From contig NZ_JAJCVJ010000001.1 in the NCBI RefSeq assembly GCF_020567425.1, positions 434,001 through 498,000 of the forward strand: a DNA stretch of 64,000 bases, in the 5' to 3' direction. Below are positions 40,487 to 41,888 of the stretch, one piece after another; the first letter of the stretch is position 1, and each line of letters starts with the position of its first letter. Under the pieces are notes generated by a model. The model made no database searches. It saw only the letters and a list, made by a program, of their open reading frames with translations, and was not told the origin of the DNA. The DNA comes from Salinirubrum litoreum. Lineage in GTDB: Archaea > Halobacteriota > Halobacteria > Halobacteriales > Haloferacaceae. A program made the translations under genes and the position numbers.

Positions 40487-40633
40487 ATGCGCGACGAAGC
40501 CGAGATCCGGGAGCAGTACGAGTTCCTCGAAGAACAACTCGCCGACGAGGAGATGCGCCACGAGGGCGTCAGACAGATGTTCACGTACTACAAACGCGCA
40601 CTGGGCTGGGTGCTCGAAGAAGAGCACATGTGA
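40487..40633 (+). CDS. Small coiled-coil protein, 48 aa
   Basis: A 48-residue charged helical protein (EAEIREQYEFLEEQLADEEM; MFTYYKRALGWVLEEEHM) opening with ATG 40487. It is divergent from the photolyase, 74 bases between starts. Such short helical proteins are common in haloarchaea; unknown function. Confidence 0.7.
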   Translation: MRDEAEIREQYEFLEEQLADEEMRHEGVRQMFTYYKRALGWVLEEEHM

Positions 40634-40806
40634 CTCTCGCCTGCACCACTAATGGACCGATCGGAGCGTGTGACCGGTCCAATCACACCGAGCCGAACCA
40701 GTTACGACCGCCGTGTCGCACCCGGTTGGACACTGCCCACGACGGAAGCGACCAGCCGGCACCCTCGCGTTCTGTCGTCCCTCGGGCGTCAGACTCCGTC
40801 GGTAGC
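40634..40806. other. Intergenic region without recognisable gene
   Basis: No protein-like frame and no strong repeat is visible between the 48-residue protein gene and the TATA element at 40807. Together with the candidate RNA and the stretch to 41044 this makes 411 bases without a protein gene. Confidence 0.5.
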
Positions 40807-40814
40807 TTTAAGTA
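40807..40814 (+). promoter_or_regulatory. TATA box of candidate small RNA
   Basis: TTTAAGTA in an A-rich context. An initiation site about 25 bases downstream would be near 40834, immediately before the first hairpin. Confidence 0.6.
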
Positions 40815-40833
40815 AAAACACTCGGTACTATGG

Positions 40834-40927
40834 TGTGACGCTTCGCTTGGAGGGCCGAAGCGTCAGCGGGGACCAATTCAGGGCGGCAAGAATCCACGCA
40901 CTCTTTGCGTGGCTTGCTTTCCTTTTG
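40834..40927 (+). ncRNA. Candidate structured small RNA with two hairpins and T-rich end
   Basis: Hairpin 1: TGACGCTTCG (40836-40845) pairs perfectly with CGAAGCGTCA (40856-40865), with loop CTTGGAGGGC exposing GGAGG. Hairpin 2: CCACGCA (40894-40900) pairs with TGCGTGG (40906-40912), extended by GCAAG/CTTGC (40886-40890 with 40913-40917) around an AAT bulge. A T-rich TTTCCTTTTG (40918-40927) follows, as in archaeal terminators. A TATA element precedes it. No protein frame fits. Identity is unknown; it is not RNase P, SRP or box C/D RNA by inspection. Confidence 0.55.
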
Positions 40928-40989
40928 TGATACTCGACCGACCAGTAGTACACCGAGTCTCGACTCCCTCGTGGTACGCAACGAGACGG

Positions 40990-41008
40990 TGTGACGAGGT
41001 GCGTCACA
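40990..41008 (+). other. Third hairpin downstream of candidate RNA
   Basis: TGTGACG (40990-40996) pairs perfectly with CGTCACA (41002-41008) over a 5-base loop. The 9-mer GGTGTGACG occurs here (40988-40996) and at the start of the candidate RNA (40832-40840). The amphi-Trp gene ends 37 bases beyond on the other strand. Confidence 0.5.
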
Positions 41009-41044
41009 GAACGCCGTAGTTCGTGGCTTTCTCGACGGGGCGAC

Positions 41045-41612: not shown

Positions 41613-41888
41613 ATGTACGACTTGACAGGCTTCCAGCGCGATCTGCTGTACGTCATCGCAGGACTGGAAGAGCCCCACGGACTGGCCATCAAAGAAGAAC
41701 TCGAAGAGTACTACGAGAAGGAGATCCACCACGGCCGCCTCTACCCGAACCTCGACACGCTCGTCGACAAAGGGCTGGTCGAGAAGGGCCAGCGCGACCG
41801 CCGCACCAACTACTACACGCTGACCCGGCGCGGTCGGCGTGAGATCGAAGCGCGGGACGACTGGGAGTCGAAGTACGTCGCGGCGTAG
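41613..41888 (+). CDS. PadR-family transcriptional regulator
   Basis: A 91-residue winged-helix regulator: LTGFQRDLLYVIAGLEEPHG, GLAIKEELEEYYEKEIHHGRLYPNLDTLVDKGLVEKG, then YYTLTRRGRREIEARDDW. It lacks the long C-terminal dimer helix of classical PadR, as is usual for short haloarchaeal members. Ligand and target unknown; the upstream dyad might be its own operator. It is convergent with the AI-2E transporter gene, with 5 bases between the two stop codons. Confidence 0.9.
   Translation: MYDLTGFQRDLLYVIAGLEEPHGLAIKEELEEYYEKEIHHGRLYPNLDTLVDKGLVEKGQRDRRTNYYTLTRRGRREIEARDDWESKYVAA

Follow-up and report, generated by a model that had tools for sequence, protein, structure and literature searches.

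The window, a stretch of 64,000 nucleotides of Salinirubrum litoreum DNA, almost certainly contains an RNA gene on its + strand. Our combined reading, which we consider likely, is that this gene encodes a non-coding RNA of about 92 nt with its own TATA box, that the RNA belongs to an order-wide family which includes hts10 of Haloferax volcanii, and that it docks on a partner. One member of the family, hts10, is already known, and the family as a whole is not in Rfam. The window RNA is a new member of this partly known family of small RNAs (sRNAs), notable for its conservation.

Results

The RNA gene is located in the interval 40634-41044, which separates the flanking coding regions and is 411 bases long, as the earlier note had counted. 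That note described a TATA box, two hairpins and a T-rich end at this locus, and each of these elements is present where it was placed. The TATA box TTTAAGTA can be read directly from the sequence at 40807-40814 and forms, together with a BRE-like CGGTA at 40800-40804, a promoter spanning 40800-40814. The small RNA, of about 92 nt, probably extends from 40835 to 40926, its 5' end being placed by the spacing from the TATA box and its 3' end by the T-rich stretch. Hairpin 1 (40836-40865) has a perfect 10-bp stem, TGACGCTTCG/CGAAGCGTCA, in the window copy and a 9-bp stem in the family, and carries an exposed GGA in its loop (40849-40851). It is followed by the partly unpaired linker AGCGGGGACC (40865-40874), which is 99-100% identical in 215 copies of the RNA. 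Hairpin 2 (40880-40922) consists of a conserved base, AGGGCGGC, a variable GC-rich stem and a U-rich loop, and contains the bulged 12-bp hairpin claimed at 40886-40917, in which GCAAG and CCACGCA pair with TGCGTGG and CTTGC and AAT is bulged. The T-rich end TTTCCTTTTG (40918-40927) is the probable termination region. That the window RNA is transcribed is suggested by analogy, as its Haloferax paralogue hts10/HVO_2213s was detected by sequencing (PMC3956466). The fold of the window sequence by itself exceeds that of shuffled sequences only moderately (z of -2.2 on the + strand and -3.7 on the - strand), and comparison with relatives was therefore needed.

The RNA is conserved throughout the order. 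A 181-base query gave matches at E<=0.001 in 91 of 99 relatives' genomes, and R1, a covariance model built on the first 54 nt, found the core in 241 of the 243 genomes of the order that were at least 90% complete, i.e. in 71 of 73 genera, so that the conservation in related genomes on which the earlier note had made its proposal depend is borne out. In a sample of the phylum, searched with R1 under the stricter filters of the large phylum and order searches, at which weak matches may be lost, every match was inside the order. A pattern match with two mismatches was seen in G309, which belongs to a different family of the phylum. Within the family of the window organism, 49 of 54 genomes have at least two R1 matches, a few of the extra ones being weak, and the window's own genome likewise has a second copy elsewhere; the other families of the order mostly have one match. 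The segment TGGAGGGCCGAAGCGTCAGCGGGGACC shows 99-100% identity per position in the 215 copies (196 of them distinct), a figure somewhat favoured by selection as the copies were partly gathered by the motif itself; the R1 result is independent of exact identity to this motif. No covariance model of Rfam 15 matched at its gathering score, and permissive thresholds returned nothing relevant; a literature text search for the RNA sequence found no paper, viral contigs contained no exact match to a 25-base pattern, and phages gave no match. The earlier note had called the unit unnamed, which is correct in that no Rfam family covers it, but one family member already bears the name hts10.

The 5' domain and its promoter are almost fixed. 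In 207 of the 215 copies the start of a TATA-like box lies 26-29 nt before the RNA, and the conserved upstream columns (-35/-34, -31 and -27 to -24) are the BRE and TATA positions. Stem 1 and UGGAGGGCC are 99-100% identical in the same copies. The folding prediction gives the GGA in the loop of hairpin 1 an unpaired probability of 0.94-0.98; this apical trinucleotide and a portion of the linker following GCGGGG are the most exposed segments. Between the invariant blocks the loop has variants of 2, 3 or 4 bases, which shift every reading frame and make a conserved peptide unlikely; with the frames broken by an indel inside the conserved block, no conserved reading frame of a peptide-coding mRNA was found among these copies. 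RNAalifold on a MAFFT alignment showed no covariation in stem 1, because this stem hardly varies, and its pairing therefore rests on folding and complementarity. Compensatory changes had been expected in both stems; the invariance of stem 1 limits them to hairpin 2.

Apart from its base, hairpin 2 is hardly fixed in sequence, yet it folds with z<-2 in 70 of 72 copies chosen to be deliberately divergent (median -4.7), so the stems are kept in relatives rather than destroyed. RNAalifold on the MAFFT alignment missed this hairpin, and it was therefore examined without a global alignment. Among 54 pairs of relatives compared ungapped, 130 pair cells had changed, 42 of them by double compensatory changes; a slid-partner control gave 20 of 420, which makes these changes about sevenfold commoner than in the control. 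Counted over all changed cells, the proportion that still pairs differs little (0.52 against 0.47 in the control), at least partly because indels were left unaligned in this comparison. Mixed pair types also occur near the loop; as these pairs are predicted, they serve as illustration rather than as proof. The loops of the 72 copies are 61% T, compared with 25% T in the region, and the T fraction of the ten bases after hairpin 2 is 0.39, compared with 0.21 upstream. The fixed spacing from TATA box to RNA, the near-invariant 5' domain, the structurally conserved 3' hairpin, the T-rich end and the lack of a conserved reading frame together support the proposed stand-alone small RNA, some 90 nt long and with its start near 40834.

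Copy A, the window type, is located between the gene for a 48-aa protein (40487-40633 in the window, + strand) and the gene for a RosR-like regulator of the PadR family (41613-41888, + strand), both of them conserved neighbours outside the RNA, and this arrangement is common to most families of the order. The 48-aa protein gene lies directly upstream of the RNA on the same strand in 116 of 209 loci, with 72-100% identity; the protein has no match in Pfam or NCBIfam and is a candidate partner of the RNA. In 119 of 209 loci the regulator (PF03551), which is related to the solved hsRosR, follows downstream on the + strand, and an amphi-Trp gene on the opposite strand is often found between it and the RNA. 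Second copies are located among varied, unrelated genes, and two haloarchaeal plasmids carry copies that the PLSDB gene table leaves unannotated.

Judged by gene order, the second Haloferax copy is very probably hts10 (HVO_2213s) of H. volcanii, of which the window copy would be a paralogue in the same family. Around this second copy the order is E1-alpha, Lrp, TrkA, a small Lrp-like protein, a DUF-type protein, the RNA and a transducer (names read from the protein sequences rather than taken from Pfam results), and it coincides with that of HVO_2209 to HVO_2214. HVO_2209 is oadhA4 (PMC8305020) and HVO_2212 has 78 aa (PMC12850539), which is also the length of the small Haloferax Lrp-like ORF counted from its first ATG. 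The 54-nt core is common to the window RNA and to both Haloferax copies, A and B; hts10 would thus share, judged by the copies of its Haloferax relatives, the 5' core of the window RNA. It differs from the window RNA in listed length (161 nt, compared with the approximately 92 nt inferred here) and in locus, the window RNA being the other paralogue, at the locus of the 48-aa protein and PadR genes. hts10 (2078656-816/F) was found by sequencing and prediction and was also found in 18 further genomes; a mutant deleted for it shows mild growth changes (PMC3956466). When both Haloferax copies lie on one contig, their strand is the same, and in four genomes they are 0.58-0.73 Mb apart; in a fifth (G375) the distance is larger, which may reflect where the circle was opened. 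H225.2R (96 nt, conserved) was the first candidate for identity, but it is HVO_2213s that agrees with the gene order and with the distance between the Haloferax copies. HVO_2908s was rejected as the window-type copy, because copy A in Haloferax lies about 5 kb from the FEN1 gene, which is HVO_2873 in H. volcanii (PMC7776575).

Discussion

We propose a mechanism in which the invariant 5' domain, i.e. the 9-bp stem, the exposed GGA loop and the GCGGGGACC linker, would act as a single docking surface for one conserved partner, whilst the 3' hairpin, which varies freely yet is never missing, would with its U-rich loop and tail end the transcript and stabilise or protect it. We give this partner-docking mechanism about even chances. 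The partner would more probably be a protein or an RNP than a variable set of mRNAs, since the invariance of the whole 5' domain is explained more easily by a conserved protein or RNP than by mRNA seeds. Tentatively, the RNA may be a housekeeping RNP RNA specific to haloarchaea, found throughout the order and under constraint like that on a core stable RNA, docking on the ribosome, RNA polymerase or another protein via the GGA-loop hairpin and the GCGGGGACC linker, with its loss in the hts10 deletion masked by the second copy. The presence of two copies in most genomes of the window's family suggests such a reason for the mild hts10 phenotype, and we infer that the phenotype reflects redundancy with the second copy; it fits redundancy, and equally a minor role.

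The exposure of G-rich segments is also what would be expected of a trans-acting sRNA that pairs with several mRNAs via short G-rich seeds (the GGAG loop and the GGGGACC linker), and other intergenic haloarchaeal sRNAs, e.g. sRNA132, do affect mRNA levels (PMC6560208). However, the invariance takes in the entire 5' domain including its stem, beyond the needs of a seed, and a 13-base complement of the linker, searched as an exact 13-mer in 40 genomes, is essentially confined to the RNA genes themselves, with no conserved site outside them; we hold this explanation to be unlikely. Pairing with rRNA appears more doubtful still. The invariant loop UGGAGGGC, with its exposed GGA, could allow a ribosome-associated RNA whose GGAGG, as a mimic of the Shine-Dalgarno motif, pairs with CCUCC at the end of 16S rRNA; the 16S rRNA of the window's genome ends in CACCTCCT, and H. 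volcanii does have ribosome-associated RNAs (PMC6104027). Such pairing would comprise only 5 bp, since its extension needs a U and all 215 copies have a G after GGAGG, and the complementarity of the whole RNA to rRNA is at the level of shuffled sequences, as judged by duplex energies, on which ground a role as an antisense guide of rRNA was also rejected. The evidence thus counts against pairing with mRNA or rRNA as the main cause of the invariance.

Since the 48-aa protein gene and the PadR gene are conserved neighbours, the element might act in cis, as leader, trailer or regulatory element of one of these genes. Nearly all copies have their own TATA box, the RNA is often separated from the PadR gene by the opposite-strand amphi-Trp gene, and second copies with the same core lie among unrelated genes and on plasmids, so that we consider a cis element very improbable. 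Docking of a stand-alone RNA on a conserved partner remains our preferred reading.

Haloarchaeal sRNAs are described as showing very little conservation, since of 27 tested 22 were confined to H. volcanii (PMC3956466), and an RNA that is near-invariant across a whole order stands out against them and points to a core partner. The intergenic sRNA132 of H. volcanii resembles the window RNA in its location, but is confined to the genus Haloferax (PMC6560208), whereas the window family reaches 71 of 73 genera, and this restriction rules out identity. The intergenic, ribosome-associated s194 is of similar size (97 nt; PMC6104027), but other haloarchaeal genomes are listed as lacking it (PMC3956466), and its locus, HVO_2011s2, is a different one; identity is ruled out as s194 is not conserved. 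The archaeal SRP RNA (RF01857) of the same genome contains the linker 10-mer AGCGGGGACC at its positions 55-64 (L225). The sRNA locus has no Rfam match, the Rfam consensus reads differently at the 10-mer site, and shared runs of up to 12 occur with shuffled sequences, so that we treat the shared 10-mer as a coincidence; similarity to RNase P was likewise within the shuffled range.

Two good genomes of the order, G067 (family f9) and G069 (family f11), gave no R1 match, which indicates that some lineages can do without the RNA. Together with the f2 genomes they stand for families within the order, most of them small in genome size, from which the RNA is missing, and other absences in these genomes could point to its partner. 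A degenerate copy, TTGGAGGGCCGAAGCGTCAGAGGGACTATC, was seen on the - strand near position 2030 of L220 (G298), in AT-richer DNA and without an obvious terminator hairpin; it may have decayed or been captured. Copies of a third lineage (L222 3001-3120, which is pHLAC01; L167; L055), one of them on a Halorubrum plasmid, are possibly carried by a mobile element; they keep the invariant core and have a conserved 3' part of their own, CCGAC...TGTGTGGCATT..CCCCTTTTGTGCTGG.
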